Assembly (NCBI RefSeq): GCF_022690685.1
Contig: NZ_JALCYY010000017.1
Span: 1 to 64,000 of the forward strand
Source: Anaeromyxobacter terrae
GTDB lineage: Bacteria > Myxococcota > Myxococcia > Myxococcales > Anaeromyxobacteraceae
Direction of reading: 5' to 3'
Length of the DNA stretch: 64,000 bases
The notes below the pieces were generated by a model. It was not told where the DNA came from. It saw nothing but the letters and a program-made list of their open reading frames with translations, and ran no database searches. A program made the position numbers and the translations under genes. Positions 20,446 through 50,476 of this stretch are shown one piece after another; the first letter of the stretch is position 1, and each line of letters starts with the position of its first letter.

Positions 20446-21216
20446 ATGTGCCGCCTCTTCGGCCAGCACGCTCACCCCGACTTCGACGTCTGCGAGCCGC
20501 TCTGCAGCGCGGAGAATGCGCTCCGCTTCCAGTCGCACCGCCATCCGCACGGCTGGGGCATCGGCTGGTACGTCGACGGGGCGCCGCACGTCCGGCGCGG
20601 CATCCTGCCCGCCCACGCCGACGAGTCGTTCGTCGTCGCCGGCCGGGAGGTCCGCTCCGCGGTCGTGATCGCGCACGTGCGCGAGGCGAGCGTCGGCCCG
20701 GTGCTCCGCGAGAACACGCACCCGTTCCTGTTCGACCGCTGGCTCTTCGCCCACAACGGCACGGTGGCGCGCTACCGCGAGGTCCCCGCGGTCCGGTCGG
20801 CCATCGAGGCGGAGATCGATCCCGACCTGCGCCAGGAGATCCGCGGCGACACCGACAGCGAGCGGGTCTTCTACCTCTTCGTCTCCCGCCTCCGCGCGCT
20901 CGGCACCCCGCGCGCGGCGGACCTCTCCCTCGTCCGACGGGCCCTCGCCGACACGACCGAGACCGTCCTCCGCATCGCCGACGCCGAGCCCTCGCCGAAG
21001 CCGACCTCGCTCAACCTCGTCGTCTCCGACGGCCGGCTGCTCGCCGCGTGCCGGCACGGGCGGACGCTCCACGTCGCGTCCGCCGCCGCCCCGCGCCACG
21101 TCTTCGCGGTGGCGAGCGAGCCCATCGGCGCGGGCCCGTGGCAGGAGCTCCCCGAGGGCGGGTTCGCCGGCACCGAGGACGGGGCGCGGGTGCAGCGCAG
21201 CGCCTTGCGTCTCTAG
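20446..21216 (+). CDS. Class II glutamine amidotransferase domain protein
   Basis: A 256-residue Ntn-type amidotransferase. After Met removal, Cys2 (MCRLFGQ) would be the nucleophile; HPHGWGIGWYVDG, HVREASVGPVLRENTHPF and FAHNGTVARYRE are the conserved glutaminase features. There is no synthase domain, as in YafJ/EgtC-type proteins, so it either pairs with another protein or hydrolyses a gamma-glutamyl compound. I start at the ATG of MCRLFG (20446) because the nucleophile must be residue 2. Its stop overlaps that of the convergent gene (CTAG). Confidence 0.9.
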   Translation: MCRLFGQHAHPDFDVCEPLCSAENALRFQSHRHPHGWGIGWYVDGAPHVRRGILPAHADESFVVAGREVRSAVVIAHVREASVGPVLRENTHPFLFDRWLFAHNGTVARYREVPAVRSAIEAEIDPDLRQEIRGDTDSERVFYLFVSRLRALGTPRAADLSLVRRALADTTETVLRIADAEPSPKPTSLNLVVSDGRLLAACRHGRTLHVASAAAPRHVFAVASEPIGAGPWQELPEGGFAGTEDGARVQRSALRL

Positions 21217-22859
21217 TCGAGCCCCGCGATCGCGAGGCCTCGCGGAGTGCGCACCTCGTAGCGGAGCTCGACGACCTTCGCCTCGCGGGCGCCGAGGGCG
21301 AGCTCGTGGATGCGCACGCCGGGGCGCTCGGGATCCTCCCGCGTCGGCGCGGTGGTGCCGTCGAGGATCGCCACCTTGATCCGCTCGTCGCGGCTCACCG
21401 GGACGAGGTCGAGGAGCCTCACCGCGACCGGGGTCGCGTAACGGTTCTTCACCTCGATGCGGACGCGGTAGCGCTGGACGTCCTCCTTGGAGAGGAGGCC
21501 GGCCGTGAGCCGCTTCCGCTCGAGCACCTTGCGCTCCACCTCGACCCGGCCGTCCACGCCGAAGGCGAGCTCGAGCTCGCCGCCGGGCGGGGTGAGGGCG
21601 ACGGGCGCCCGGCCGACGAACTCGTCGCCCACGTAGATGCCGGCGAGGCCGGGAAGGAGCGGGAAGCCGGTCTCGTTCACCGCCTTGGCCGTGAGGAACG
21701 TCGCGGCCTCGCGGCGCGGCGCGGCGATGCGGACGAGCTCAGCGCGCAGCGGGAAGCGCTGCAGCGCGATCTTGCGGGCCTGCCCCGCGCCGTCCACGGA
21801 CTCGCGCCGCGGCGCCGTGAACGCGGCGGAGAGGAGCCCCTGCTCGACCGACGCGGCCGCGAGCTCGACCTCCTGGGGCTCGCCCTCGGCGACGTCCTGC
21901 TCCGGCTCCTGCGCGAACGCGCTCTTCGCGGCCGCCGGGGCGCTCGCTTGCGAGCGCCGCGCCACGCCGAGGGTGTGCACGTCCCGGCGCTCCGTCAGGT
22001 AGACGGGCTCGAGCTCGGGGACGTACACGCCGCGCGCGGGCTCCGCCGTGGAGACGACGAGCTTCACCTCGGACCAGTCCTCACCGGTGCGCTGCCACAC
22101 CGAGCCGAGGAAGGTGAGCTCCATCGTCGCGCGCTCCGGCTCGAGCCGGGCGTCCCAGATCGGCGTCCAGCCTGCGGAGCCGACCGCGTACGAGACCGCG
22201 AGCTCGAGCGCGCCGTCCCGCTCCGCCTCCAGCTCGACGCCGACCGCCTTCGTGGTCCGGGCGCGCTTCGACTGCACCTTCTCGAGCTCCGCGCGCGCCT
22301 GCGCGAGCTTCCGGGCGAGCTCGCGCCGCCCGGCCTCCGCCTTGCGCACCCGCGCGGCGGCGTCCGCGAGCTCGCGCTCGACGTGACCGGCGAGCTCCGC
22401 CCACTCGCGGGCCGAGACGCCGCGGACCGCGAGGTTCTTGGCGCGCTCCTCGGAGTAGGTCGAGCGGAGCGACTCGACGAACTTCGCGCGCGCCTGGGCG
22501 GCGCGGCTCGCGTCCTCGAGCGCGCGGTCGTCGTCCTGGAGCCGCTCGATCCGCTCCTCCACCGCGCGCGCCTCCGCCGTCACCGCCGCCTGCGCGGTCA
22601 CCCGCTCGACGCTCACGCCGAACACGCGCGCCCGGGCGGCGCCCTTCCCTTCCACCCGGATCGAGTCGTCGTCGAGCTCGTCCGGGAGCCCCTCCAGCAC
22701 GACGCGGCTCGCGCCGGCCGGCAGCTCGAAGCGGGCGACCCGGGTCACGCGGGCGGACTGACGGTAGACGGTGACCGCGTCGATGCGAGACGCGGGCTTC
22801 ACGGTGGATGCGGCGGCGAGGGCGGGGAACACGAGGGCGACGAGCGCGAGGTTGCGCAT
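21213..22859 (-). CDS. MuiA-like protein with DUF4140 and DUF4139 domains
   Basis: A 548-residue exported protein. Signal peptide 1-18; N-terminal DUF4140 (IDAVTVYRQSARVTRVARFELPAG); a long coiled coil of about residues 95-200; then DUF4139 (SYAVGSAGWTPIWDARLE... EDWSEVKLVVSTAEPARG... LTAGLLSKEDVQRYRVRIEVKN). The family is named after a 'mucoidy inhibitor A' homologue; no activity is established. AGGAGG lies 9 nt before the ATG. It diverges from the cytochrome operon with a 369-nt shared control region. Confidence 0.9.
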   Translation of the reverse strand: MRNLALVALVFPALAAASTVKPASRIDAVTVYRQSARVTRVARFELPAGASRVVLEGLPDELDDDSIRVEGKGAARARVFGVSVERVTAQAAVTAEARAVEERIERLQDDDRALEDASRAAQARAKFVESLRSTYSEERAKNLAVRGVSAREWAELAGHVERELADAAARVRKAEAGRRELARKLAQARAELEKVQSKRARTTKAVGVELEAERDGALELAVSYAVGSAGWTPIWDARLEPERATMELTFLGSVWQRTGEDWSEVKLVVSTAEPARGVYVPELEPVYLTERRDVHTLGVARRSQASAPAAAKSAFAQEPEQDVAEGEPQEVELAAASVEQGLLSAAFTAPRRESVDGAGQARKIALQRFPLRAELVRIAAPRREAATFLTAKAVNETGFPLLPGLAGIYVGDEFVGRAPVALTPPGGELELAFGVDGRVEVERKVLERKRLTAGLLSKEDVQRYRVRIEVKNRYATPVAVRLLDLVPVSRDERIKVAILDGTTAPTREDPERPGVRIHELALGAREAKVVELRYEVRTPRGLAIAGLD

Positions 22860-23069
22860 GCGAGAGGCCTCCTGCGGGCTCGTAACGCATGCACCCCGGA
22901 GATCGGTCTATCGCCTCCCTTCGATCACTCCATCAGCCGCCACGCGAAGTCGGGAGTGCCGGCACACCCAGGGGGTCCCTCGCCCCACCCGTCGCGAGGT
23001 TTGAGGCCGACCGGCGAGTGCGCCCTTTTGCCGCGATCCGTGCTCGCCAAGCGCGTCTTTCCGGCGAAC

Positions 23070-23084
23070 ATCACGCACCGTGAT
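23070..23084. promoter_or_regulatory. Inverted repeat in the cytochrome operon control region
   Basis: ATCACG-CAC-CGTGAT, perfect 6-bp arms, about 85 nt before the -24 element. Candidate binding site for a regulator of the divergent 21213-22859 gene or of the cytochrome operon. The rest of 22860-23228 shows no gene. Confidence 0.4.
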
Positions 23085-23101
23085 TGAGGTACAGCCTCGG
23101 A

Positions 23102-23119
23102 CTGCGCGTTCGAGCGCAG
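23102..23119. promoter_or_regulatory. Candidate upstream activator site
   Basis: CTGCGC-GTTCGA-GCGCAG, perfect 6-bp arms, 50 nt before the -24 element, a usual distance for an enhancer-binding protein of sigma-54. Inferred from position and symmetry only. Confidence 0.4.
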
Positions 23120-23168
23120 CACGCCACACGGCAGCCTGACACCCATCAAGCCCCAACCGGGGGCCTCA

Positions 23169-23184
23169 CGGCACCCCGATTGCA
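23169..23184 (+). promoter_or_regulatory. Sigma-54 (RpoN) type -24/-12 promoter
   Basis: CGGCACCCCGATTGCA matches the consensus TGGCAC-N5-TTGCA at every fixed position except the first base, with GG and GC at the required 10-nt separation. It lies 44 nt before the first cytochrome start. Confidence 0.75.
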
Positions 23185-23228
23185 GCCCGGCCCCGCGACC
23201 TCCTCTCGGTGACCGGAGAGCCGCAACC

Positions 23229-24761
23229 GTGTCCGACAGACTCACCCAGCGTCGCGCATCGTCCCTCCGCGTCGGCGCGGCGTGGGCGCCGGCTGCGATC
23301 CTCGCGAGCGCGCTCCTCTGCGCCGCGCCCCTCGGCTCGCTCGCCCAGGGCATCGACGCCTCGCAGACTCCGCCAACCGCCGATCCAGCGGCTCCGGAGC
23401 GCTGCACGGGCTGCCACGCGCTCGTCGTCCAGAAGCCGGTGGTCCACGGCGCGATGCAGGCCGCCGACTGCCGGGACTGCCACGCGCCGGTGCCCTCCCA
23501 GCCGGGCAAGTGCGGCGCGAGGACCGCGTCGCACTGGGCCCTCGCCAAGGCGGCCCCGGACCTCTGCTACGACTGCCACGAGCGCAAGGACAAGACCAAG
23601 TCCGTCCACACAGCGCTCCGCGACGGAAGCTGCCTGGACTGCCACGCCGCGCACGCCTCCGACCACGCCGGCCTCCTCAAGGCGCCGCGCGAGGAGCTCT
23701 GCTTCGGCTGCCACGACGCGAAGGCGCTGCTCCCGAAGTCCGTGAGGCACGCTCCGGTCGCGGAGGGTCGCTGCCTCGAGTGCCACGATCCGCACGGCAG
23801 CGATCGACCGAACGCGCTGCGCGCCGCCCAGGATCGAGCCGCGTGCCTGCGCTGCCACGACGTGCGCGCGCCGTCCGGGAAGGGCACGCCCGGGCGCTCG
23901 GCGCGCCTCGACCTGTCGAAGCCGAACGTGCACCCCGCGCTCGACGCCGGGGAGTGCGGCGCGTGCCACGAGACGGGTCACTCCGGCGAGCTCCCGAAGC
24001 TCCTCAAGAAGCGTCCGGTCGAGCTCTGCTACGAGTGTCACGACCGGAAGGACGGCACGCCGTTCCCGCACGGCGCGGTGACCCTCGGCGACTGCACCGC
24101 CTGTCACGACCCGCACGCGTCCGAGCAGAAGAAGCTGCTCGCCCGGAAGACCGACAAGGAGCTCTGCTTCGGCTGCCATCAGGACGACCTGACCGGCCGC
24201 GCGGTCGTCCACCCTCCCGCCGCGGACGGCTGCGGCGACTGTCACGATCCCCACGGCGGCAAGTTCCCGCGCGCGCTCAAGGGCGGCGCCGGCAAGGCCG
24301 TGTGCGAGGCCTGTCACGCGCCCGTGGACACGGGTTCCGTGAAGCACGCGGCGCTCGAGCGCTACGGGTGCACGGCCTGCCACGATCCGCACGGCTCGGC
24401 GAACGCCGCGCTGCTCGCCGACCGCGTCAACGCGCTCTGCGGCTCGTGCCACCCGGACCAGCAGGACGGCCGGCACGTGGCGGCGCTCTCCGGCCCGCCT
24501 CACCCGGTGGGCGGCGACCTCCTCGACCCCCGCCGTCCCGGTCGCGGCTTCAGCTGCGCGAGCTGTCACGCGCCGCACGGCTCGGACAACGCGAAGCTCT
24601 TCTACGTCGGGAAGACGCCCATGCAGTCCTGCGATGGCTGCCACGGGGACAAGTCGGGCGAGCACCCGGAGCTGCAGAACGTCGTCTCGCGAGCGCGACG
24701 CAAGCCGGGCGCGCCGGAGCCCGGCGCGGCCCCACCCTCGCCCTCGGGAGCCCCCCGGTGA
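23229..24761 (+). CDS. 17-haem c-type cytochrome (doubled CXXCH family)
   Basis: A 510-residue exported protein with a signal peptide (about 1-40, ending SLAQG). I count 17 CXXCH haem-attachment motifs, spaced 20-45 residues apart, many in the CxxCHDPHGS form typical of the doubled-CXXCH domain. There is no C-terminal membrane anchor; the tail is Pro/Arg-rich. Expected to be a periplasmic or surface electron carrier with closely stacked haems. It is the first gene after a sigma-54-type promoter and overlaps the next gene as GTGA. Confidence 0.95.
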   Translation: MSDRLTQRRASSLRVGAAWAPAAILASALLCAAPLGSLAQGIDASQTPPTADPAAPERCTGCHALVVQKPVVHGAMQAADCRDCHAPVPSQPGKCGARTASHWALAKAAPDLCYDCHERKDKTKSVHTALRDGSCLDCHAAHASDHAGLLKAPREELCFGCHDAKALLPKSVRHAPVAEGRCLECHDPHGSDRPNALRAAQDRAACLRCHDVRAPSGKGTPGRSARLDLSKPNVHPALDAGECGACHETGHSGELPKLLKKRPVELCYECHDRKDGTPFPHGAVTLGDCTACHDPHASEQKKLLARKTDKELCFGCHQDDLTGRAVVHPPAADGCGDCHDPHGGKFPRALKGGAGKAVCEACHAPVDTGSVKHAALERYGCTACHDPHGSANAALLADRVNALCGSCHPDQQDGRHVAALSGPPHPVGGDLLDPRRPGRGFSCASCHAPHGSDNAKLFYVGKTPMQSCDGCHGDKSGEHPELQNVVSRARRKPGAPEPGAAPPSPSGAPR

Positions 24762-25957
24762 GCGCGATCCCCTTCCTCTGTCTCGCCGTCGCCGCGCTCG
24801 CCGGAGGCGAGGTGATCGGCAAGGTCGGCGAGGTCCCGCTGTCGCGCGCCGCCTACGAGGAGCGGGCCGACGCGCTCCGCACCCTCGGCCAGCCCTCGCG
24901 GCCGGACGACGTCGTCGCGAGCCTCGTGGACGAGGTGCTCCTCGCGGAGGACGCCCGCCGCGAGGGCCTCGACCGCGCGCCCGAGCTGAAGGCGCGCCTC
25001 GACTCGGAGCGGCGCCGCATCGTCGGAGACGCCTTCGTGGAGCGGTCCCTCGGCGACGCGCTGGACCCGCCCGAGGCCGAGCTCCAGGCCGCGTTCCACG
25101 CGACCGCCGACTTCGCGCGCCTCCAGCTGCTCTTCTACGGAGAGCGGACCGCCGCGACGGAGGCCGCCGCGCGCCTCCGGGCGGGCGGCGCGCTCGCGGA
25201 GGAGGCCCGGCGGGCCGCCGTCGCGCAGGTGACGCCGGGCGACGCCGATGCGCCGCTCCTCATGCGCTCGCAGCTCTCGCCCGCGCTCGCGAGCGCGGTC
25301 TTCCAGGCCAGGGCCGGCGCGGTCGTCGGCCCGGTCGAGGTGCCGGAGGGGCTCGCGATCGCGAAGGTCGTCTCGCTCGACGTGGGCGACGCGGCGGCCT
25401 ACCAGGCCCGGCGCGGCGCGCTCCGCGCGCGCGCGCGGCAGCAGGTGCTCGGGCCGGCGCGGCAGCACGTCGCCGAGAACCTGCGCGCCCACGCGAAGGT
25501 CACCGTGGACGAGGCGTTCCTGCGCTCCACCGAGGCGCGCGAGCCCGCGGCCGCCGCCGACGGCCGCGTCATCGCGACGGTCCTCGGCCAGCCCCTCAGG
25601 TATCGCGACATCCTCGTGGCCCTGCGCTCGCTCGCGGAGCGGGGCGCGGGGCGCCACGTGTCCGGCGCGCAGGTCAAGATCGACGCCGCGTGGCGCGAGG
25701 TGGACGCGCGCCTGCTCGAGCACGCGGCGGTCGAGCGCGGCGTCGCCGCCGCTCCGGAGGTTCGTGAGCGCCTCGCGATGACCGAGCGCGGCGTGCTCGC
25801 TGCCGCCGCGGCGCAGCGGCTCCTGCGGCCCGCGTCCAGGGGCGAGGACGCCGAGCGGCGCATGGCGCGGGTCCGCGCGCGGCTCGAGCGGCTGCGCGCC
25901 GAGATCCCGATCTCCGTCGATCGAGCTGCCCTGGCGGCCGGCGCGGGCGCACGCTGA
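24758..25957 (+). CDS. Parvulin-type peptidyl-prolyl isomerase, exported
   Basis: A 399-residue protein with a short signal peptide (to about residue 15, ALAG), a SurA/PrsA-like N-terminal helical region, and a PpiC-like segment at about 118-210 (LQLLFYGER... ALASAVFQARAGAVVGPVEVPEGLAIAKV). A second SurA-like half follows. It probably helps fold the barrel or the multihaem cytochromes in the periplasm. The PpiC part is divergent (the usual HILV is LQLLFY), so catalytic activity is uncertain and a pure chaperone role is possible. Confidence 0.82.
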   Translation: MSAIPFLCLAVAALAGGEVIGKVGEVPLSRAAYEERADALRTLGQPSRPDDVVASLVDEVLLAEDARREGLDRAPELKARLDSERRRIVGDAFVERSLGDALDPPEAELQAAFHATADFARLQLLFYGERTAATEAAARLRAGGALAEEARRAAVAQVTPGDADAPLLMRSQLSPALASAVFQARAGAVVGPVEVPEGLAIAKVVSLDVGDAAAYQARRGALRARARQQVLGPARQHVAENLRAHAKVTVDEAFLRSTEAREPAAAADGRVIATVLGQPLRYRDILVALRSLAERGAGRHVSGAQVKIDAAWREVDARLLEHAAVERGVAAAPEVRERLAMTERGVLAAAAAQRLLRPASRGEDAERRMARVRARLERLRAEIPISVDRAALAAGAGAR

Positions 25958-25972
25958 GAGGACCGCGTCCGC

Positions 25973-28759
25973 GTGCGCTCCCGATCCGCCGTCGCCGGCC
26001 TCGTCCTGCTCGCGTCCGCGCGCGCCGTCGCGCTCCCCTCGCCGACGCGGGCGGGTGAGCTGGGGCTGCTCGACGTCCCGGATGCCGAGGTCATGGGCAC
26101 GGGCCGTGGGGCCCTCGGGGCGGAGCTCCGCTTCGATCGCGTGACGGGCCAGCCCGGCCGCTCCGGACCGCTGCCCGCGTCGCTCGTCATGGGCGTGGGG
26201 GCGCGGCTCGATCTCGGCCTCGCCGTCCGCGAGTGGGGCCAGCCCGGCGATCCGATCCCGGCACGCCCGACCTTCGGAGCCGCGGCGAAGCTGAAGCTCC
26301 TCTCGAGCTCCTCGCTGCGGGTCCCGAGCCTCGCCCTCGGCCTCACGCTGGACCGCTTCAACGCGGGCCCGGTGGCCGGAGCGCGCCTCGTCGCGTCCAC
26401 CTCGCCGACGGCTCCGGTGCGGCTCGCCGCGTTCGCCGGGCTCGAGGGGGAGCGTGGGCGCCTCGACGCGCCGGGCGTGACCGGGGGCGCCGCGCTCGCC
26501 GTGTCCCCGTTCGAACGGCTGGAGGCCATCTTCGAGGCCCTCGGCGGGCCCCGCGGCCCGAACTTCGGGGCGGCGCTCCGCGTGGGCGTGCGGCCGACGA
26601 TCGCGCTCCAGCTCGCGCTCAACTACCTGCCGTCGGACGACGGGCTGCGCGTGAGCCTCGGCGTCGCCCTGGGCTCGCCGCCGCGCGAGCGGCCGCCTGC
26701 CCCCGCCGTCGTGCCCGCGCCGCCGGCGGTCGACTCGCCGTCGGCGCCGCCGACGTTCGTCGAGCCCCGGCCGCGGTTCCGGCTCAAGCTGGGCCGCGCC
26801 GGCGCGGGGCCCCGGGCCCTCACCGGTGCTCAGGCTTCCGCTGCCGCTGGCCCCGTCGCAGCCGACCCGACCGCACCCGCCGCGCCCGCGCCCGCAGCAC
26901 CCTCCCCCACCGGCACGGCCACACCGGCGAGCGCCACAGCCCGCGCGACGGCGCAGCAGTCCGTGTCCACGATGCCGCTCGCGAAGAGCGGCAATGCGGC
27001 GCCGTCTCGCGCGGCCGCCGGCCCGGCACCCGCCGAGCCCGCCGCTGCCACGTCGCCGGAGCGCGAGCCCGCTCCCGCCGCCGCGCACGCCGACCCGCCG
27101 GCTCCGGTCGAGAAGCGCAGCCCCGCGGCACCGTCTCGCGCGGCCGTCGCCTCCGCAGAGCGCGTCGCCGCCACGCCGGAGCGCGAGGCCGTTCCCACCG
27201 CCGCGCACGATGCGTCGCCGGCACCGGACGCTGAGACGAGCGCGCCCACGCCGGCCCGCGCGACGGTCGCCTCGGCACCCGCCGCACCGGTCGCTGCCGA
27301 CGCGGACCGCGAAACCGTTCCTGCCACGGAGTCCGTGGCTCCAACCCAGGTCGGGAAGAGCAGCGCCCCGGCGCCGAGCCGCACCGCCCTGGCCTCGAAG
27401 CCCTCCGAGCCGGTCGCCCCCGTTGCCGCGCCCGAGCGCGAGCCCGCTCCCGCCCCCACGCAGGAGGCGGCACCGGCACCGGCAACGGCCGAGAAGACCA
27501 GTCCCCCGGCGCCGAGCCGCACCGTCCTGGCCTCGAAGCCCTCAGAGCCGGCCGCCCCCGTTGCCGCGCCCGAGCGCGAGCGCGAGCCCGCTCCCGCCCC
27601 CACGCAGGAGGCGGCACCGGCACCGGCTCCGACCGAGAAGACCAGCCCCCCGGCGCCGAGCCGCACCGCCCTGGCCTCGAAGCCCTCCGGGCCGGTCGTT
27701 CCCGTTGCCGCGCCCGAGCGCGAGCCCGCTCCCGCGCGCACGCACGCCGCGGGGGCGGCCCCCATCGAGCAGAGCAGCGCCGCGGCGCCGACGCGCCCGA
27801 CGATCTCCTCCACGCCCGCCGAGCCCGTCGCCGCCGCGTCGCCCGAGCACGAGACCGCTCCCGCCCCGGCGCGCGCCGCGGCGCCGGCCCCCGTCGCGGA
27901 GAGCAGCGCCGCGGCGCCGGCCCGCACGACGGACGCCTCCGCGCCCGCCGCCGAGCGCATCGCGCCGTCGAGCCCGCGCCTGGATCGGGAGGAGCCGCGG
28001 CTCGCCCCTGCGGTCGCGCAGCTTCACGAGGAGCACGCCACGGCGGTCGCCGAGGCGGGCTCGCACCCCGCGAAGCGCACCGCGACGACACGGGAACGCC
28101 GCGCGTCGCGCGGGCCCGCGCCCGCCGTCCAGCCCTCGCCTTCGCCGGCGCGCTCCGTCGCGGTGGCTTCGCCGCGGGCCACCCCGGGAGCGATCGCGCC
28201 CTCCCCTGCGCCCGCCCGAGCGGCGGCCGCGAGCCCCGGCGCGCCTGCGGCGGCGTCGTCGCGGCCGGCGCCCGTCGAGGCGCCGGCGCCGGCGCGCGTC
28301 TCCAACGTCCCGTCCCACGCCACGCCGGCGACGACGCGCGCGGTCACGGTGCGCGCCCTGACGAGCGACGTCCCCATCGAGCGCATCACCGCGCAGGGTC
28401 GCGTGATCACCTTCACGCTCCCGCTCGCGCCCGTCTCCGCGTCCGACCGCGATCGGATCCGCGAGATCGCCGCGCTGTCCGCGCGCGACGGGAGGCCGAT
28501 CTACGTGTGGGAGTGCAGCCGAGGCCGCGCGAAGGGTCCGAGCGCTCCACGGACCCTCGTGCCCCACGCGCCGTCGACCGCGCAGATCGTCACCCAGCTC
28601 GTCCTCGAGGGCCCCGTGACCGTGGACGAGCTCGTCGCGGCGCTGCGGCGGAGCATGCAGCCCGGGATCGAGCTCTGCGCGTCGCTCTACCTCCCAGGCG
28701 AGGCGCCGCGTGCCGTCGAGCTCGAGCCTCTGCGCTCCTCCGGAGGCGCCGCCCGATGA
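25973..28759 (+). CDS. Large Pro/Ala-rich envelope protein with tandem repeats
   Basis: A 928-residue protein starting at GTG. Residues ~1-22 are a signal peptide. Residues ~25-235 are beta-rich and Gly-rich with alternating hydrophobics, resembling part of an outer-membrane barrel. Residues ~240-800 are a low-complexity Pro/Ala/Glu/Ser linker containing in-frame tandem repeats (SKPSEPVAPVAAPERE type). The last ~130 residues are folded again and faintly recall OmpA-like domains (ITFTLPLAPVSASDRDRIREIAAL), with two cysteines. Its place between the isomerase and the barrel suggests an envelope-spanning scaffold; this is inference. The family is not recognised. Confidence 0.75.
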   Translation: MRSRSAVAGLVLLASARAVALPSPTRAGELGLLDVPDAEVMGTGRGALGAELRFDRVTGQPGRSGPLPASLVMGVGARLDLGLAVREWGQPGDPIPARPTFGAAAKLKLLSSSSLRVPSLALGLTLDRFNAGPVAGARLVASTSPTAPVRLAAFAGLEGERGRLDAPGVTGGAALAVSPFERLEAIFEALGGPRGPNFGAALRVGVRPTIALQLALNYLPSDDGLRVSLGVALGSPPRERPPAPAVVPAPPAVDSPSAPPTFVEPRPRFRLKLGRAGAGPRALTGAQASAAAGPVAADPTAPAAPAPAAPSPTGTATPASATARATAQQSVSTMPLAKSGNAAPSRAAAGPAPAEPAAATSPEREPAPAAAHADPPAPVEKRSPAAPSRAAVASAERVAATPEREAVPTAAHDASPAPDAETSAPTPARATVASAPAAPVAADADRETVPATESVAPTQVGKSSAPAPSRTALASKPSEPVAPVAAPEREPAPAPTQEAAPAPATAEKTSPPAPSRTVLASKPSEPAAPVAAPEREREPAPAPTQEAAPAPAPTEKTSPPAPSRTALASKPSGPVVPVAAPEREPAPARTHAAGAAPIEQSSAAAPTRPTISSTPAEPVAAASPEHETAPAPARAAAPAPVAESSAAAPARTTDASAPAAERIAPSSPRLDREEPRLAPAVAQLHEEHATAVAEAGSHPAKRTATTRERRASRGPAPAVQPSPSPARSVAVASPRATPGAIAPSPAPARAAAASPGAPAAASSRPAPVEAPAPARVSNVPSHATPATTRAVTVRALTSDVPIERITAQGRVITFTLPLAPVSASDRDRIREIAALSARDGRPIYVWECSRGRAKGPSAPRTLVPHAPSTAQIVTQLVLEGPVTVDELVAALRRSMQPGIELCASLYLPGEAPRAVELEPLRSSGGAAR
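27371..27745 (+). repeat. In-frame tandem repeat, units of 138 and 144 bp
   Basis: Copies begin at 27371, 27509 and 27653 with GCGCCGAGCC; the second is one hexamer (two codons) longer. The third copy decays after about 27745. All units keep the reading frame of the host gene. Confidence 0.85.
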
Positions 28760-30501
28760 ACTCCAACCGCGCCGCCATCGGGCTCCTGCTCGCGATCGCG
28801 ATCGGCCCCGCGCGCGGCCTCGCCTTCGACTACAGCGGCCGCCTGGGGCTCCGCTACGACCGGACCGACGGCTGGATCGACGGGCAGCACGGGTTCGTGC
28901 CCGTCCTGAACCTCGACGGCGCCGCGTCCGCGAGCGGCTACCTGTTCGCGCCCGACGCCCTGCGCCTGCGCGGCGGCCTCGAGTACGACCGGCTGCGCCG
29001 GGGGGCCGGCGGGGACGAGAGCACCGACGGGACGCTCACCTACGAGGGCTCCGCATCGCTCTTCGAGACGCGCGAGAGCCGGCTCGGCGCGTCCGCCGAG
29101 GCGTACCGCCGGGTCATCGACTTCACGACCTCGGCCGCGGCCGCGGCGGTCACCGGCACGCGGGTGGAGTCCGGCTACGGCGCGAGGGCGCGCTACGCCG
29201 ATCACGTCCTGCCGATGCTGTCGCTCGGCGCCTTCCAGCGCGACAGCAACAGCGTCGACGCCGCGGGCGTCGAGCGGGCGGAGACCACGCGCCTCGTCGA
29301 GGTGAGCACGCAGCACGGTCCCGGGCCGTACTCGGCCCGCGTGGACTACCGCGGCCGCTGGAACGAGGGGGACCTCGCGATCCAGGACTACACGACGCAC
29401 GAGGTGGACGCGAACGCGTCCACGTCCCTCGGCGGCGCCGTCGAGGGCTTCGCCTCCGTCCGCTACGACCTCCGGCTCCCCGGCAACGTCGACGCCGTGA
29501 ACCCGCGCTACGAGGGCGACCTCGTGCGGTCGGGGGCGCGCTGGACCGGCGAGGCCAGCCGCGGGTCGGCCCACTACGCGTACACGCATGTGAGCCTCTC
29601 CGCGCCCGCGCTCCTCGATCGCGAGCGGATCCAGCAGTCCGTCACCGCCTATCACGAGGTGACGCACTCGCCGCGCTGGGAGTCGGCGTGGACGGCGAGC
29701 CTGGCGCTCACGCAGGACCGGCTCGCCGCGGTGGAGGAGACGGCCGCAGGGCAGATGGCGGGAGCGGTGCTCCGCTGGCGCGCCCGGGGCGAGGCGCGCA
29801 GCCTGCTGCTCGAGGCCGGTCCGACGCTGGGCCTCCTGGAGCCCGCGGCGGGCGGGAGCGAGCTCGGGTACGGCGCGCACGCGCGGGCCCGGCTCGACGG
29901 GGCCTGGGACGTCGTCCGGTACGGGATCGACTACGCGATCGACCATCGCTCCAACCTGGACGCCGTGCTGGGCTGGGGCCTGCGCCAGTCCCTGCTCGTC
30001 GAAGGCGCGCGCAGCTTCTCGAGCGTCTCGACCCGGCTCGCGCTCACCGCCTCGGCCACGCGCCAGGACCTGAAGCTCTTCGGGGCGAGCTCGACGCGCG
30101 ACGTCCTCCTGCGCGCCGGCGCGACCTGGCGCCGCCACGAGGTCACCCTCGACGCGGGCGTGCTCGACGGCGTCTCTGGCGCGCTGCAGGGGATCCGCGG
30201 CGACGGCCTGTTCCTGCCGCCCGAGTTCGACACCCACTCGCGCTACGCGATGCTCATCATCGGGAGCGAGCTCGCCGAGCGGCTGCGGCTCACAGGCCGC
30301 ATCCGCCACGCCGCCGTCTCGGGGCCCGAGTATGCGGATCAGCGGGAGACGAACGTCGGCGGGGGCCTCTCCTACCGGATCGGGCTCGTGACGTTCTCGG
30401 TCGAGGAGACCTACACCTTCGCCGAGGCCGGCTCCACGACGCGCCGCCGCAACGACCTCTTCGTGCGCGCGAGCCGCACGTTCGGCGGACGCTTCCCGTG
30501 A
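28756..30501 (+). CDS. Outer-membrane beta-barrel, porin of an electron conduit (candidate)
   Basis: A 581-residue protein with a signal peptide (about 1-24, LAFDYSG) and long runs of alternating polar and hydrophobic residues rich in Tyr, Arg, Gly and acidic residues, as in large transmembrane barrels. The chain ends in RASRTFGGRFP, close to the usual C-terminal aromatic signal for BAM insertion though the final residue is Pro. No cysteine or haem motif is present. Between multihaem cytochrome genes this is the expected porin partner of a porin-cytochrome conduit. ATGA overlap with the preceding gene. Substrate channel function cannot be excluded. Confidence 0.8.
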   Translation: MNSNRAAIGLLLAIAIGPARGLAFDYSGRLGLRYDRTDGWIDGQHGFVPVLNLDGAASASGYLFAPDALRLRGGLEYDRLRRGAGGDESTDGTLTYEGSASLFETRESRLGASAEAYRRVIDFTTSAAAAAVTGTRVESGYGARARYADHVLPMLSLGAFQRDSNSVDAAGVERAETTRLVEVSTQHGPGPYSARVDYRGRWNEGDLAIQDYTTHEVDANASTSLGGAVEGFASVRYDLRLPGNVDAVNPRYEGDLVRSGARWTGEASRGSAHYAYTHVSLSAPALLDRERIQQSVTAYHEVTHSPRWESAWTASLALTQDRLAAVEETAAGQMAGAVLRWRARGEARSLLLEAGPTLGLLEPAAGGSELGYGAHARARLDGAWDVVRYGIDYAIDHRSNLDAVLGWGLRQSLLVEGARSFSSVSTRLALTASATRQDLKLFGASSTRDVLLRAGATWRRHEVTLDAGVLDGVSGALQGIRGDGLFLPPEFDTHSRYAMLIIGSELAERLRLTGRIRHAAVSGPEYADQRETNVGGGLSYRIGLVTFSVEETYTFAEAGSTTRRRNDLFVRASRTFGGRFP

Positions 30502-31517
30502 CGCCCGCCGCCGCACGCCTCGGCGCCCTCGCCGCCTGCGCCGCGCTCGCCTGCGCCCATGCCCCGCGCGCCGCGCCCAGCCAGCTCCCCGACCTTCGCT
30601 GGCCCGAGGGGCCCGCCGCCCCGCGCGCGCGGCTCGCGCGGCTGCTCCCGGACCCGCAGGCACAGGCGCCCATCGCCCCCGCCTGGCGCCGCGCCCTCGA
30701 CGCCGTCCTCGGCCTCGAGCGCCGCGCGCCGGACGCGGGCCTGCGCCGCCCGTTCGGCGTGCTCGCCGTCGACGGCGAGGAGACCCTCGTCGCCGACCCT
30801 GACCTCGCCCGCGTGGTGCGCGTGGGGGGCCGGGGGACGCAGCGGACCGTGGAGTGCAAGGGCCGCGCGTGGAGCGCGCCGTTCGCGCTCGCCCGCGCGC
30901 CCTCGGGAGAGCTCCTCGTCGCCGACGCGGGCGCCGCCGTCGTCGTGAGGATCTCGCCCGACGGGCGCTGCGCCGAGCTCGGCGCCGGACGGCTCGAGCG
31001 GCCGACCGGGGTCGCCGCGACGGCGGACCGGATCTACGTGGCCGATCCGCCGCGCCACGAGGTGGTCGCGCTCTCCGCGGCAGGCGAGGTCGTCGCCCGC
31101 ATGGGCGGACGCGGCGCGGGCGACGGGCAGCTCAGCTTCCCGACCGCGGTGGCGGTGGCGCCTGACGGCACCCTGCTCGTCGTGGACGCGCTCAACTTCC
31201 GCATCTCGCGGTTCTCGCCGGACGGGCGCTGGCTGGGCGCGTTCGGAGAGGCCGGCGACGAGGGCGGAGCGCTCGCCAGGCCCAAGGGGATCGCGGTGGA
31301 TCGCGAGGGGCGTGTCTACGTGAGCGACGCCCAGCGCGACGTGGTCCTCGTCTTCTCGCCTGCGGGCGCGCTCGAGTACGCCCTGGGCGCGAGCGGCGAG
31401 GGGCCGGGCCGGTTCGTCCACCCCGCGGGGCTCGCGGTCGCGGGGAACCGCCTGCTCGTCGCGGACAGCCTGAATGGCCGCGTCCAGGTCTTCGAGCTCA
31501 TCGGAGAGGCACCATGA
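30498..31517 (+). CDS. NHL-repeat beta-propeller lipoprotein (candidate)
   Basis: 339 residues from a GTG that overlaps the barrel stop (GTGA). The N-terminus has a signal sequence with possible lipobox cysteines (LAAC or ALAC). From about residue 95 there are repeats of the NHL type: FPTAVAVAPDGTLLVVDALNFRISRFSPDGRW, ARPKGIAVDREGRVYVSDAQ and similar, enough for a six-bladed propeller. Such propellers often sit beside multihaem cytochromes and isomerases in extracellular electron-transfer loci; their role is not settled. Confidence 0.85.
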   Translation: MTPAAARLGALAACAALACAHAPRAAPSQLPDLRWPEGPAAPRARLARLLPDPQAQAPIAPAWRRALDAVLGLERRAPDAGLRRPFGVLAVDGEETLVADPDLARVVRVGGRGTQRTVECKGRAWSAPFALARAPSGELLVADAGAAVVVRISPDGRCAELGAGRLERPTGVAATADRIYVADPPRHEVVALSAAGEVVARMGGRGAGDGQLSFPTAVAVAPDGTLLVVDALNFRISRFSPDGRWLGAFGEAGDEGGALARPKGIAVDREGRVYVSDAQRDVVLVFSPAGALEYALGASGEGPGRFVHPAGLAVAGNRLLVADSLNGRVQVFELIGEAP

Positions 31518-33229
31518 GGCTCCTCGTCGCCGTCGCGCTCCTCGCCGCCTCGCCCGCGCTCGCGGCCCCAGGCCGCGTCGCCGGCTCGAAGCACGACCTC
31601 TCCGTCACCGGACCGGGGCCCATCAAGGCGGAGCAGGAGACGCGCGTCTGCATCTTCTGCCACGTGCCCCACCAGGGGAGCCGCGAGGCGCTGTCGAGCC
31701 GGCCGGATCCCGGCGCCGGGCACCGGCCCTACGCGAGCGGCACGATGCGGGCCCGGCCCGGCGCGCCCTCCGGCGCGTCGCGCGTGTGCCTCTCCTGCCA
31801 CGACGGCACGATCGCGATCGGCCGGACCACCTCCGAGCTCATCGCGATGAACGGCGCCGCGCCGGGCGGCGTCATCCCGTCGACGCGACGGTCGAACCTC
31901 GGCACCGACCTGCGGCGCACGCACCCGATCTCCTTCGCTCCGGCGCCGGCGGCGTCCACGCACCGGCCCGCGCCGCACGACGCGGTGCGCCTCGACAGGA
32001 ACGGCGAGCTGCAGTGCACCGCCTGCCACGACCCTCACGCGGAGTATGGGGGTTCCGCAGAGGGCAAGTTCCTCGTCAAGCCGACGGCGGGGGCCCAGCT
32101 CTGCGCCACGTGCCACGTGTCGTCGGGCGCGTCGAGCCACGCCTCCTCGCCCGCGGCGCTCCCGCCCGCCGAGCGCGCCGCGACGGGCTACGCCTCCGTC
32201 GCCGAGGCCGCGTGCATGGCCTGCCACCGCTCTCACGGCGGCGACGCCCGCGGCGGACTGGTCGCCCGCGGCGACGTCGAGCGCGACGATGCCCTGTGCC
32301 TCCGCTGCCACGGCGGCGCGGTCGCGCGGCTCGACGTCGCCCTCGACGCGGCGAAGCCCTACTCCCACGCGATCGACGGCGGCCGCCAGCACGACGCCGC
32401 GGAGGGCCCGAGCGGCCCGGGCCCTCGGCTGCCCGAGACGTCCGCCGCCGCGCCCCGCCACGCCGTGTGCGTGGACTGCCACGATCCGCACGAGGCGAAC
32501 GGGCAGCGCACGGCTGCCCCCCTCGCCGGCGGCGCGCTGGCCGGCGTGTGGGGCATCGACCTCGCCGGCCGACCGGTGACGCCGGCGCGCTTCCAGTACG
32601 AGGTCTGCTTCAAGTGCCACGCCGACAGCGCGAACCAGGCCGACGCGCCGGGCGCGGTGCGGCGCGCGCGCCCCGAGCCGAACCTCCGGCTCGTGTTCGA
32701 CCCCTCCGCGCCCTCGTTCCACCCGGTCGCCGCGCCGGGCCGCAACCCCGAGGTCCCCGGGCTCCTCCCTCCGTACGACGAGACGAGCCTCGTCTACTGC
32801 ACCGACTGCCACGCCTCGAGCTCCGGCCCCGGGGCGGGCGGGAGCGGGCCCCGCGGGCCGCACGGCTCCGTCTACCCGCACCTGCTCGAGCGCAGCTACT
32901 CCACCGCCGACGGGACCGTCGAGAGCGCCGCGGCGTACGCGCTCTGCTACAAGTGCCACGATCGCGAGGTCCTCCTCTCGTCGCGCTCCGCCTTCCCGCA
33001 CCGCCGGCACGTCGTGGATGGGCGCGCGGCCTGCGCCGCCTGCCACGCGGCGCACGGCGTCGCGCGCACCTCCGGCACCGACACGGCGAACGCCCACCTC
33101 GTCGACTTCGACCTGTCGGTGGTGGGCCCGGGCCCGGGCGGACGGCGCGAGTACGAGCGCCGCGGCCCGCGCACGGGGAGCTGCGCGCTGCGATGCCACG
33201 GCAGGGAGCACGACCGGACCACGTACTGA
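31514..33229 (+). CDS. 12-haem c-type cytochrome with one CX3CH site
   Basis: A 571-residue exported cytochrome (signal peptide 1-18). I count 11 CXXCH motifs and a final CALRCH, a CX3CH motif that could bind a twelfth haem. The first four sites follow the layout CxxCHxPH, CxxCHDGT, HPIS, CxxCHDPH, CxxCH, the same as in the small tetrahaem cytochrome at 34774-35361, so the N-terminal domain is related to it. It is coupled to the NHL gene by an ATGA overlap. Likely a surface-exposed or periplasmic partner of the barrel. Confidence 0.94.
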   Translation: MRLLVAVALLAASPALAAPGRVAGSKHDLSVTGPGPIKAEQETRVCIFCHVPHQGSREALSSRPDPGAGHRPYASGTMRARPGAPSGASRVCLSCHDGTIAIGRTTSELIAMNGAAPGGVIPSTRRSNLGTDLRRTHPISFAPAPAASTHRPAPHDAVRLDRNGELQCTACHDPHAEYGGSAEGKFLVKPTAGAQLCATCHVSSGASSHASSPAALPPAERAATGYASVAEAACMACHRSHGGDARGGLVARGDVERDDALCLRCHGGAVARLDVALDAAKPYSHAIDGGRQHDAAEGPSGPGPRLPETSAAAPRHAVCVDCHDPHEANGQRTAAPLAGGALAGVWGIDLAGRPVTPARFQYEVCFKCHADSANQADAPGAVRRARPEPNLRLVFDPSAPSFHPVAAPGRNPEVPGLLPPYDETSLVYCTDCHASSSGPGAGGSGPRGPHGSVYPHLLERSYSTADGTVESAAAYALCYKCHDREVLLSSRSAFPHRRHVVDGRAACAACHAAHGVARTSGTDTANAHLVDFDLSVVGPGPGGRREYERRGPRTGSCALRCHGREHDRTTY

Positions 33230-33333
33230 CCACGCCCGACGGTGGCGTCCGCGATTTGCGCGAGCCGCTGGCGCGTGAGATCACCGGCTTCCCGGGTCCG
33301 CCCCTCGGGGCCCCGCACACAGGCGAGACGATC

Positions 33334-34455
33334 ATGAGCACCCGCACCGCGTCCCCTTCTCTCCCCCCCGCCGCGCTCGCGGGCGCCGCTCGGCGCCGCG
33401 CGGCGCTCGCCGCGGCCCACCACGCCGCGGCGACCGGCAGCGCGGGCGCGCAGCGGAATGCGGACACCCGGGTCTGGCCGCCGCCCCCCGACAAGGCGCG
33501 CATCGAGTACGTGGAGACGATCTCCGGCACGGAGGGGTTCTCGCGCTCGTTCTGGTCGAAGGCCCGCCGCGCGCTCTTCGGCCGAGGGGACGAGATCTCG
33601 CTCAAGAACCCGATGGCGCTCGCGCTCTCGCCGGACGATCGCAGGCTGTACGTCTCCTGCCCGATGGCCGGGTCCGTGGTGGAGCTCGATCTCGTGGAGC
33701 GCTCGGTCCGGGGGGTCGCCAGCGCGGACGGGCACCGCCCCGCGCAGCCGTTCGGGCTCGCGGTGGATGCGGCGGGGGACCTGTTCGTCGCCGACGCCGC
33801 CCAGCGGACGGTCCTCGTCTACGCGGCCGGCGGCGCGTTCCTGCGCGAGATCGGCCGCGGGCTGCTCGAGCGCCCGACGGGGCTCGCCATCGACCGCACC
33901 CGCGGCCTCCTGTATGTCGTCGAGGGTGGGAGCCGCGAGTCGGAGCGGCACCTCGTCGAGGTCTTTGCGCTCGATGGCCGCCACCTCAGGACGATCGGCG
34001 GGCCGGGCTCCGCGCCAGGACGCTTCCTGTTCCCGTCGCACGCGGCCGTGGACGCAGGCGGCAACCTGTACGTCTCCGACACGCTCAACTCCCGCGTCCA
34101 GGTGTTCGACCCGGCGGGCGAGCTCGTGACCGCGTTCGGGACGCTGGGGAGCGCACCGGGCTCGTTCGGCAAGGTGAAGGGGATCGCGTTCGACGCGTTC
34201 GGCAACCTGCACGCCGCGGACGGGCAGAACGCCACCGTGCAGATCTTCAACGCGCAGCACCGGGTGCTGCTCGAGTACGGCGGTCGCGGCGGTCGCGTGG
34301 AGTTCATGGAGCTCCCGACCGGCGTCGCCGTGAGCTCTGGAAACGACATCTTCGTGGCCGACTACACCGGCAACCGCGTGAACCACTACCGGCTCGTCAA
34401 CACCGCGGCGCAGGACTCGTCGGTGGTGGCGGGCGCAGCCGACGCGCCGCGTTAG
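33334..34455 (+). CDS. NHL-repeat beta-propeller protein
   Basis: 373 residues with at least five NHL blades (PFGLAVDAAGDLFVADAAQRT, FPSHAAVDAGGNLYVSDTLNSRVQVFD, KVKGIAFDAFGNLHAADGQNAT, LPTGVAVSSGNDIFVADYTGNRV). The first ~45 residues are Ala/Arg-rich with two His and do not form a normal signal peptide, unlike the sister gene at 30498; either export is unusual or the true start differs. Spacing from the 12-haem gene is 104 nt, the only loose joint in the operon. Confidence 0.85.
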   Translation: MSTRTASPSLPPAALAGAARRRAALAAAHHAAATGSAGAQRNADTRVWPPPPDKARIEYVETISGTEGFSRSFWSKARRALFGRGDEISLKNPMALALSPDDRRLYVSCPMAGSVVELDLVERSVRGVASADGHRPAQPFGLAVDAAGDLFVADAAQRTVLVYAAGGAFLREIGRGLLERPTGLAIDRTRGLLYVVEGGSRESERHLVEVFALDGRHLRTIGGPGSAPGRFLFPSHAAVDAGGNLYVSDTLNSRVQVFDPAGELVTAFGTLGSAPGSFGKVKGIAFDAFGNLHAADGQNATVQIFNAQHRVLLEYGGRGGRVEFMELPTGVAVSSGNDIFVADYTGNRVNHYRLVNTAAQDSSVVAGAADAPR

Positions 34456-34590
34456 CGGCGGCCCGACCACCAGCGCGCGCCACCGCCGAGGGCGAGGCGG
34501 ACCCAGGGTCGAGCCAGTACACCACCGCGCCTCTCGGTTACTCGCTGTGAACCATCTTCTGCGCGCCAGCGCGCAGGGACACAGGCGGGA

Positions 34591-34621
34591 ATTGACCTGA
34601 GGTCAATGCACCCGTTGACCT
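34591..34621. promoter_or_regulatory. Palindromic operator with third half-site before tetrahaem cytochrome
   Basis: ATTGACCTGAGGTCAAT (34591-34607) is a 17-bp palindrome with a central G; a further half-site TTGACCT lies at 34615-34621 and could also serve as a -35 box. A TGGGGG/CCCCCA hairpin follows at about 34635-34650. The region 34456-34773 otherwise holds no gene; its leader is ~150 nt long. Confidence 0.6.
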
Positions 34622-34773
34622 TTCGTCGGCGGCTGGGGGTACTCCCCCACCGTCGGCGATGTACGGCCGCGAAAGGACCCAGCTATCCCAGGTCCCGTGC
34701 GGGCCCTGCTCTTGCACCTGTGCCCGCCCGGCCGTGCGCAGGGGCACGGCAACACGAAAGGACTGTCCCTCAC

Positions 34774-35361
34774 ATGAAGAAGGCTATCGTTCTCGGCCTG
34801 GCGCTCTTCGCGACCACCGCCTCGGCGGCCATCACGGGCACGCCGCACGACCTCCTCAAGCTCGCGGGCAACACGGCGTCGAGCGCCTGCCAGTACTGCC
34901 ACATGCCGCACCACTCCAACACGGCCGTCACCGACGCGCCCCTCTGGGCGAAGGCGGTCCGGACGAGCTACACGGACGGCGGCGTGGCCAAGACCGTCGG
35001 CTCGAACTCGCAGCTCTGCCTGAGCTGCCACGACGGCACGGCGTCGGCGGTCACGACCCAGCACAACGGCCAGACGCTCGCGACCGCGTACACGATCAAC
35101 GGCGGCGCGACGGGCGGCACGAACGTCGGGACGGAGCTCGGCAACGATCACCCCGTGTCGATCACGTACGCCTCGGCCGGCGGCGGCCTCGCCGCGCTCG
35201 TCTCGCTCACGGCCGCGAAGACGGCCGGGTTCGTGTTCTTCGGCGCGACCGCCGACCAGCTCGAGTGCGGGAGCTGCCACGATCCGCACGTCCAGCCCAC
35301 CGGGGGCAACTTCCTCCGCGGCGGCACGGGCGACTTCTGCACGAAGTGCCACCAGAAGTAA
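34774..35361 (+). CDS. Small tetrahaem c-type cytochrome, possible filament subunit
   Basis: 195 residues with a clean signal peptide (1-18, ASA) and four CXXCH motifs (CQYCH, CLSCH, CGSCH, CTKCH). Between sites 2 and 3 lies a ~90-residue Gly/Ala/Thr-rich segment with NDHPVSITY. From memory, this layout and its neighbours (isomerase, NHL protein, larger cytochromes) recall the OmcE locus of Geobacter, whose tetrahaem protein polymerises; that identity is a hypothesis. It has its own operator region, an AAAGGA ribosome site and a strong terminator, suggesting high, independent expression. Confidence 0.93.
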   Translation: MKKAIVLGLALFATTASAAITGTPHDLLKLAGNTASSACQYCHMPHHSNTAVTDAPLWAKAVRTSYTDGGVAKTVGSNSQLCLSCHDGTASAVTTQHNGQTLATAYTINGGATGGTNVGTELGNDHPVSITYASAGGGLAALVSLTAAKTAGFVFFGATADQLECGSCHDPHVQPTGGNFLRGGTGDFCTKCHQK

Positions 35362-35372
35362 CGCAGGCGTCG

Positions 35373-35435
35373 CGCGGTCGATGAACGACCGCGGCGGTGC
35401 ACGAGGGGGAGAGGCCGAGAGGTCTCTCCCCTTTT
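35373..35435 (+). terminator. Terminator pair after tetrahaem cytochrome
   Basis: First an 8-bp hairpin CGCGGTCG / CGACCGCG (35373-35393), then GGGGAGAG / CTCTCCCC (35406-35431) followed by TTTT. The second is a canonical Rho-independent terminator. Confidence 0.88.
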
Positions 35436-35493
35436 CAGTTCCCCGCGCTCGGCGCCCCGTCGAACGAGCGCAGCCGTGGTATGCCTCGCACCC

Positions 35494-44926: not shown

Positions 44927-45799
44927 TCAGGCTCGCTCGCCGCCCGGCGCGAGCGGGTTCGCCCCCGCGCGCAGGAACCCGCGCTCGCCCACGAGGAGAT
45001 CGAGCACCAGCGACGCGGCGTCGTCGGCCACCACGTCCGCGCCGTGCGCCTCGGCGAGATCGAAGACCTTGAGGTAGGCGCGACAGCCCTCGCACGCCTC
45101 GGCGGCGACGCCGCGCGGGCCGTCCTCGACGCTGAGATACGAGAGCTTTCCCGCCTCGCGGCACACCGCGCACTGGGCGCGGGGCAGGTGCCACTCCGCG
45201 CTGCAGAGGCCGCACACGACGTAGCGTACGCGCGCGTCGCCGAGGACCACGCTCGCGACCGGGGTCCCGCCGCAGACCGGGCAGGCGGCGCCGCCCGGCG
45301 CGACCGCCGTCGGCTCGACCGCGGCGGCGAGGCGGGTGAGGTGCGCCTGGAGCGCCCCGCCCACGAACGGCGCCGCGGCGAGGTCGGCCGGCGCGCCGGC
45401 GAGCAGGTCGTCCGCGAGCGCCTCGATCACGTCGGGCGGCGCGGCCTCGAGCCGGGCGATCGCGTCGGCGGCCGCGGCCGGGAGCGCGCCGTCTCGCGCG
45501 GAAGCCAGCACGACGCGGAGCATGGCGCGCCACGACGGATCGCGCCGCGCGGCGGCCTCCGCGAGCGGCGATCCGCCTCCGCCCGCCGGACGAGGCGCCG
45601 CGCCCGGGCGGACCTCCCGCAGCGCCCGGTCCTGGCCGCGCGCGATACGGGCGAGGAACCGGAGCCAGTCGCCCGCGGCGTGATCCTTCGCGAGCGCCTC
45701 GAGGCGCTCGGCCCGGGTGCGGAAGACGAGCGCCGGCTCCGGCAGCCGGAGCGGCGGCGGCGCATCGCCCGGCGTGATCGGGAGCGCGGTGGAGCTCAA
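44927..45799 (-). CDS. fdhE: Formate dehydrogenase accessory protein FdhE
   Basis: 290 residues with the rubredoxin-like FdhE C-terminus: four CxxC pairs (CPVCGG, CGLCSAEW, CAVCREAG, CEGCRAY) at about 180-265. FdhE is needed for formate dehydrogenase maturation in the cytoplasm before Tat export. The TTG at 45799 overlaps the fdoI stop (TTGA) and is preceded by GGAGA, which is why I chose it. It completes fdoG-fdoH-fdoI-fdhE. Confidence 0.9.
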   Translation of the reverse strand: MSSTALPITPGDAPPPLRLPEPALVFRTRAERLEALAKDHAAGDWLRFLARIARGQDRALREVRPGAAPRPAGGGGSPLAEAAARRDPSWRAMLRVVLASARDGALPAAAADAIARLEAAPPDVIEALADDLLAGAPADLAAAPFVGGALQAHLTRLAAAVEPTAVAPGGAACPVCGGTPVASVVLGDARVRYVVCGLCSAEWHLPRAQCAVCREAGKLSYLSVEDGPRGVAAEACEGCRAYLKVFDLAEAHGADVVADDAASLVLDLLVGERGFLRAGANPLAPGGERA

Positions 45800-46515: not shown

Positions 46516-46518
46516 GGC

Positions 46519-47391: not shown

Positions 47392-47401
47392 GGCCGCCTC
47401 C

Positions 47402-50400: not shown

Positions 50401-50476
50401 ACCCGAGCGCGCCGAGGCTCGTGGCCCCGATCCCCGACGTGGTGAGCTTGAGAAACTGGCGTCGAGACAGGTTCAT
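47402..50476 (-). CDS. fdoG: Selenocysteine formate dehydrogenase-N, catalytic subunit
   Basis: 1,024 residues when the in-frame TGA at 49889-49891 is read as selenocysteine 196 (RV-Sec-HGPTVAG), the same position as in E. coli FdnG. Tat signal SRRQFLK at 4-10, [4Fe-4S] motif CPYCSVSC...TLCPKG, then the molybdopterin domains ([38 protein letters not shown]). Oxidises formate in the periplasm. The ATG at 50476 has GGAGA 7 nt upstream. The two open frames flanking the TGA are one gene, not a pseudogene. Confidence 0.96.
49860..49891 (-). promoter_or_regulatory. UGA selenocysteine codon and bacterial SECIS hairpin
   Basis: The UGA (49891-49889) is followed by a stem-loop GGUGGCC-GGUCU-GGCCCC whose loop GGUCU is the SelB-recognised loop of E. 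coli fdhF/fdnG SECIS elements; the loop lies about 19-23 nt after the UGA, the correct distance. Confidence 0.9.

Follow-up and report, generated by a model that had tools for sequence, protein, structure and literature searches.

We report that eight genes of Anaeromyxobacter terrae, a member of a genus of soil bacteria, form a movable cassette that probably encodes an electron conduit across the outer membrane, onto which an extracellular cytochrome filament may be built. The genes span positions 23229-35361 of the plus strand of a 64,000-nucleotide stretch of contig NZ_JALCYY010000017.1 (the window, to which plain coordinates refer; guanine-plus-cytosine (GC) content 74%). They encode cytochromes with 17, 12 and 4 haem motifs (MHC17, MHC12 and TETRA), a large beta-barrel, a parvulin-type isomerase (PPI), a Pro/Ala-rich protein (P928) and two NHL propellers (NHL1 and NHL2). 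A comparable complex, Uet (undecahaem electron transfer), has reportedly been described from Tenderiales by Eddie et al. 2022. The reading that we favour, at somewhat better than an even chance, is a Uet-type trans-outer-membrane conduit whose outer cytochrome docks a filament of the OmcE type. We infer that the proteins form a complex in which MHC17 would take up electrons in the periplasm, or deliver them there, and fill, feed or thread a 28-strand barrel, while MHC12 would sit at the outer mouth of the barrel, held by lipoprotein NHL propellers. MHC12 carries an OmcE-like head, and because this head mimics a filament subunit, free TETRA subunits could stack on it, polymerise and extend the haem chain outwards. 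The isomerase may help to fold the cytochromes, it and the propellers may aid assembly, and P928 is probably an anchor or spacer for the complex within the envelope. Electrons may flow either way.

The candidate nanowire subunit is TETRA (34774-35361; UetA-like), an OmcE homologue over its whole mature protein. Searches with phmmer matched it to OmcE (7tfs, 5.3e-14) and to 9yuq, deposited as 'putative multiheme cytochrome c' (3.9e-19), and a profile of 34 TETRA relatives from many phyla matches OmcE 7tfs across its full length (2.5e-48). These sequence matches make TETRA a member of the OmcE nanowire family known from Geobacter. Four CXXCH motifs, four further histidines (H25, H46, H126 and H172) and a C-terminal lysine (K195) are invariant in 34/34 tetrahaem sequences. 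The four invariant histidines outside the motifs would give one distal histidine per haem, as bis-His ligation requires, so that bis-His pairing is expected in TETRA. In OmcE, one haem ligand is shared between adjacent subunits (PMC12307469, PMC12954529), and by analogy TETRA may share a ligand between subunits in the same way; the rise of the OmcE filament is 34 A (PMC12954529). A first-pass annotation of the window had suggested that the small cytochrome is a nanowire subunit; at the level of the family this holds, given the OmcE match and the conserved motifs and candidate distal histidines, while the polymer itself we infer.

How might such a filament be joined to the cell? An answer is suggested by MHC12 (31514-33229; UetJ-like), a 12-haem outer cytochrome with 11 CXXCH motifs and a twelfth haem motif of the form CX3CH. 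Its sole match by sequence in the PDB is again OmcE 7tfs (E 6.6e-17), in the N-terminal region; no significant match to MtrC was found in the PDB. The first ~205 residues (31514-32161) align with TETRA, with all CXXCH motifs and candidate distal histidines kept, and eight more haems lie beyond this head, which the first-pass annotation had missed. TETRA and the head are both OmcE homologues, and each keeps the four haem motifs along with the four candidate distal histidines, a finding that supports a conduit that docks a filament.

A tree of 77 heads and 57 tetrahaem sequences resolves into two clades with 2 misplacements (support 0.998). Because the tree separates them, heads and free tetrahaems are old paralogues and not the outcome of a recent fusion, and in consequence there is no need for the head still to pair with a subunit. 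This ancient separation favours a simpler alternative, a plain porin-cytochrome conduit in which TETRA, soluble or bound to the surface, would act as a shuttle without ever polymerising and the head would be just an inherited electron-transfer domain. It is also in keeping with this alternative that, in the literature covered, a polymer is known within the OmcE family only for OmcE itself and possibly for 9yuq. However, none of the four candidate distal histidines, among them whichever one acts between subunits in OmcE, varies in the 34 tetrahaem sequences, and all four are kept in the heads; we regard a plain conduit with a shuttle as improbable.

The barrel (28756-30501; UetC-like) is predicted with high confidence to be an open pore: the AlphaFold2 model, built with 56 homologues, has a predicted local distance difference test score (pLDDT) of 92.2, 28 strands and no plug. 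The first-pass annotation had held that its conduit would fall if no transmembrane pore were predicted, and a plug-free pore is what the model predicts. A Foldseek search with the model returned outer-membrane barrels, among which MtrB (6r2q_B) had the highest template-modelling (TM) score of the matches listed, 0.46; modest TM-scores are expected because the strand number differs. As in an MtrAB-type porin, the modelled barrel could hold a cytochrome. MHC17 (23229-24761) is an MtrA/DmsE-like cytochrome with 17 CXXCH motifs, and with the threshold used it has a sole PDB match, chain A of the Mtr complex structure 6r2q (phmmer E 2.7e-16). We take this chain to be MtrA, although the molecule name in the structure file differs. 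Like MtrCAB (6r2q), then, the cassette combines an outer multihaem cytochrome with an MtrA-like cytochrome and a large barrel that has no plug; MtrCAB has 26 strands and decahaem partners, whereas the window barrel has 28 predicted strands. The predicted barrel, the MtrA-like MHC17 and a conserved core of barrel, NHL and 12-haem genes all support the electron conduit proposed at first pass.

The remaining genes agree with the original inventory of haem counts, barrel, parvulin, Pro/Ala-rich protein and two propellers in one direction, which gene calls, Pfam and motif counts bear out. CXXCH counts of 17, 11 and 4 in MHC17, MHC12 and TETRA are far above chance (shuffle means 0.16, 0.07 and 0.02), the called frames have a GC content of about 0.85-0.96 at third codon positions, and Pfam finds paired CXXCH domains, a PPIC-type rotamase and NHL repeats in the cassette proteins. 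PPI (24758-25957; UetB-like) has a signal peptide and a Rotamase_2 domain (5.8e-9). NHL1 (30498-31517; Pfam NHL 2.8e-23) is a six-bladed propeller and a probable lipoprotein, judging by a Cys-Ala-His after its signal peptide; NHL2 (about 33334-34455, exact start uncertain; Pfam NHL 7.8e-21) is the second propeller. The 928-residue P928 (25973-28759) consists of a signal peptide, a ~250-residue N-terminal domain that is conserved in relatives, Pro/Ala-rich repeats (tandem repeats at 27054-27950) and a ~120-residue C-terminal domain. It has no Pfam or NCBIfam match and is family-specific; tblastn across relatives returned mostly Pro/Ala composition noise. Assignment to the OmpA family was rejected: a weak match in one relative (0.026) was not repeated with C-terminal fragments of other relatives. 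As had been noted, the first six genes, MHC17 through MHC12, are joined by 4-base overlaps or one 15-base gap; gaps of ~104 bases and 318 bases then precede NHL2 and TETRA. The bounds first given to the locus, 23169 and 35435, need a small correction at the start, since the best start codon lies 60 bases further downstream; the end is the last T of a hairpin-plus-TTTT described below.

The gene set had not been recognised at first pass, but it matches one that is published. Uet is known from cathode-oxidising Tenderiales and also from Gallionella, and comprises UetA, an extracellular tetrahaem; UetB, an isomerase; UetC, a barrel; UetDEG, periplasmic trihaems; UetH/I, NHL proteins; and UetJ, with 11 or 12 haems (PMC10734462). 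A tetrahaem, an isomerase, a barrel, two NHL proteins and an 11/12-haem protein are all present at 23229-35361, a likeness at the level of the parts list. In place of the three trihaems UetDEG, the window has the single 17-haem, MtrA-like MHC17, and P928 is extra. By gene list, the locus thus matches the published Uet set, in an Anaeromyxobacter form with a family-specific MHC17 and P928. This gene-for-gene match to the list (PMC10734462), together with the finding that the eight genes lie in one indel, supports the conduit. A resemblance to Geobacter OmcE loci, also suggested at first pass, holds in part: besides the tetrahaem homologue, Geobacter sulfurreducens has a putative periplasmic cytochrome, GSU0616, in the operon gsu0615-0617 adjoining omcE (PMC1829397). 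However, that locus (GSU0615-GSU0618) adjoins ppcA and ResB/ResC genes, and the literature covered mentions neither a barrel nor a 12-haem gene in it.

To place the cassette among bacteria at large, we compared an MHC12 profile with 84,980 species genomes and obtained at least 568 relatives. The counts that follow are for the loci of the best 80 of these, which are 36-58% identical to MHC12 over near full length; many come from metagenome assemblies, so that single phylum assignments may be wrong, and many contigs are too short to show the full set. Going by their record titles, these loci belong to Myxococcota, Hydrogenedentes, Desulfobacterota, Nitrospirota, Nitrospinota, Acidobacteriota, Pseudomonadota, Bacteroidota/Ignavibacteria, Planctomycetota, Verrucomicrobiota, KSB1, Calditrichota, Zixibacteria and BRC1. 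In 71/80 the 12-haem gene is immediately preceded by an NHL gene, and NHL genes, barrel candidates and tetrahaems occur nearby in 76, 57 and 54 loci, respectively; the complete set of tetrahaem, two NHL, barrel and 12-haem genes is present in 41/80. The synteny search suggested at first pass has therefore found the core set, tetrahaem/NHL/barrel/NHL/12-haem, both in the family and in at least 12 phyla. The recurring order in other phyla is tetrahaem - NHL - pentahaem - barrel of ~660 residues - NHL - 12-haem, with a pentahaem cytochrome at the place of MHC17 in many of them. These pentahaem cytochromes are lipoprotein-like, with a lipobox-like Cys followed by a shared FFF(T/D)GVP motif (L036:384-1076, L092:8769-9326, L046:6126-6821). 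The window barrel family and the 650-670-residue barrels of other phyla match by profile (probability 96% over 292 columns). We tentatively extend our proposal, at rather less than an even chance, to UetJ-type 12-haem cytochromes in general: these would be nanowire base plates, with the OmcE-like head as the first pseudo-subunit on which an OmcE-family filament grows, and a single haem chain would lead from the periplasm into the filament in a dozen phyla or more.

Several points weigh against a conduit that docks a filament. The homology of TETRA to OmcE is no proof of filament formation, and the AlphaFold2 model of the TETRA monomer (13 sequences) is poor, with a pLDDT of 36, and gives no view of docking or polymerisation. 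MHC12 is without an obvious lipid anchor. The correlation of evolutionary distances between the barrel and MHC12 (r 0.58), weaker between TETRA and the MHC12 tail (r 0.40), counts in favour of the conduit, but it partly reflects shared ancestry. Finally, the window barrel could be a secretion pore, since accessory proteins of the osc operon, related genes of Geobacter, are said to fold and secrete nanowires: where PMC13194489 cites Shen 2025, this operon of similar parts is given genes for the folding (OscH) and secretion (OscE, F, G) of OmcS nanowires.

By this last argument, the barrel, propellers and isomerase would mainly serve to assemble and export the tetrahaem filament, the role put forward for the osc operon of OmcS, and electrons would reach the wire via other conduits. 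A 28-strand pore may well be wide enough for a folded small protein, and the same genome has an osc locus of its own (OetABI-type; L110, G000:C132:46000-65900), with the order NHL, OmcS (6ef8, E 7e-114), 732-residue barrel, isomerase, 26-haem, 16-haem, NHL, in agreement with the OetABI-type gene sets of Skennerton 2017 (PMC5539420) and Murali 2023 (PMC10553843). Like the window, it combines in a single locus an isomerase, an NHL propeller, a barrel, a filament cytochrome and MtrA-like cytochromes of very large size. The core of the OetABI/osc type is made up of a 16-haem and a 26-haem cytochrome, an isomerase and a six-bladed propeller. The cytochromes differ: a hexahaem OmcS with 26- and 16-haem proteins in the osc locus, a tetrahaem of OmcE type with 12- and 17-haem proteins in the window. 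Moreover, the barrels of the two loci have no detectable homology (hhalign probability 5.7%), and pure secretion would need neither the MtrA-like MHC17, which lies in the same overlapping gene run, nor MHC12, the most widely conserved member. We consider a mainly secretory role, the main rival to our reading, unlikely, and note that export or assembly and conduction could both be true. Membership of the window locus in the OetABI/osc type was rejected on two grounds, the separate canonical OmcS/osc locus and the lack of detectable relation between the barrels. Because the osc locus is separate from the cassette, the genome has two systems in parallel, one of the OmcS type and the other of the OmcE type.

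Comparison with the closest relative (G005) reveals the cassette as a unit. In G005 the flanking genes adjoin each other: blastn homology runs to window position 22888 and begins again at 35464, with ~21 bases between. The eight genes, including TETRA, are therefore one 12.6-kb indel (22889-35463; GC 76.3%, flanks 73.8%), a joint behaviour that had been overlooked, as TETRA stands apart. The comparison establishes an indel, which may be a gain in one genome or a loss in the other. The gene set recurs in other Anaeromyxobacteraceae, namely G003, G006 (A. oryzae Red232, placed in the same genus), G010, G017 and partial contigs of others, and in some of these NHL2 and TETRA sit between PPI and P928 instead. 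Identity to the window proteins is highest for MHC17 (57-62%), NHL1 and MHC12 (about 50-62% for the three), lower for NHL2 (42-46%) and PPI (35-40%), and least for the barrel and P928 (about 25-30%). Between PPI and P928, relatives usually carry a small helix-turn-helix (HTH) gene of the HTH_32 type, transposase-like (L014:3064-3525, L013:15952-16314, others), which is missing from the window copy and is possibly a dedicated regulator.

MHC12 is full-length or nearly so in about 22/195 Myxococcota genomes searched, and 5/9 genomes of the genus, counting that of the window, have no MHC12 match. In other members of the family, the cassette is flanked by a sensor kinase/regulator pair on one side and a glycosyltransferase pair on the other. 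The corresponding site in the present genome (L112:4338-12812, G000:C132) retains the neighbouring glycosyltransferase and two-component genes, along with the small HTH gene, but has no cytochromes. This suggests either that the cassette was lost there and gained here, or that it was relocated. Beside the kept neighbours there are also two small genes of ~140 residues with similar starts. Such patchiness within the genus and the change of site are what one might expect of a decaying or unused mobile remnant. The eight frames are open, however, with strong third-position GC, and no haem motif or candidate distal histidine has been lost; we think a remnant very improbable.

The separate control of TETRA claimed at first pass is plausible. 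In its favour, TETRA has its own 318-base leader (34456-34773; folding z-score -2.4), within which lies a perfect palindrome, TTGACCTGAGGTCAA (34592-34606), and the fold of 35362-35450 on its 3' side has a 14-pair stem (z-score -3.7) followed by TTTT, a strong terminator-like hairpin at 35403-35435. The claim goes no further than plausible, because a sigma-70 promoter scan gave no match and the palindrome was not found in the leaders of relatives. The leader matched no Rfam family, with nothing credible at E <= 5, and a cyclic di-GMP (c-di-GMP) riboswitch or other Rfam element 5' of TETRA was accordingly rejected.

The surroundings of the cassette are of other kinds. Upstream lie an ordinary class-II glutamine amidotransferase (20446-21216) and a DUF4139/DUF4140 protein (21213-22859). 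A formate dehydrogenase-N cluster occupies 44927-50476 on the minus strand; its catalytic subunit is a selenoprotein with an in-frame TGA at codon 196 (NQARV-U-HGPTV), at which a naive open-reading-frame call splits the gene, and fdhB, cytochrome b561 and fdhE follow.

The assembly, anchoring and electrical joining of cytochrome nanowires to the outer membrane were called unresolved in a 2025 review (PMC12307469). A conserved conduit cytochrome with a filament-subunit-like head, encoded beside a filament subunit and a large barrel, offers a concrete and testable answer to the question of anchoring: the head on the pore cytochrome suggests how wires could plug into the cell. The cassette occurs in many phyla, among them Planctomycetota, Bacteroidota, Verrucomicrobiota and Nitrospirota, which implies that OmcE-type wires would not be a Geobacter speciality.

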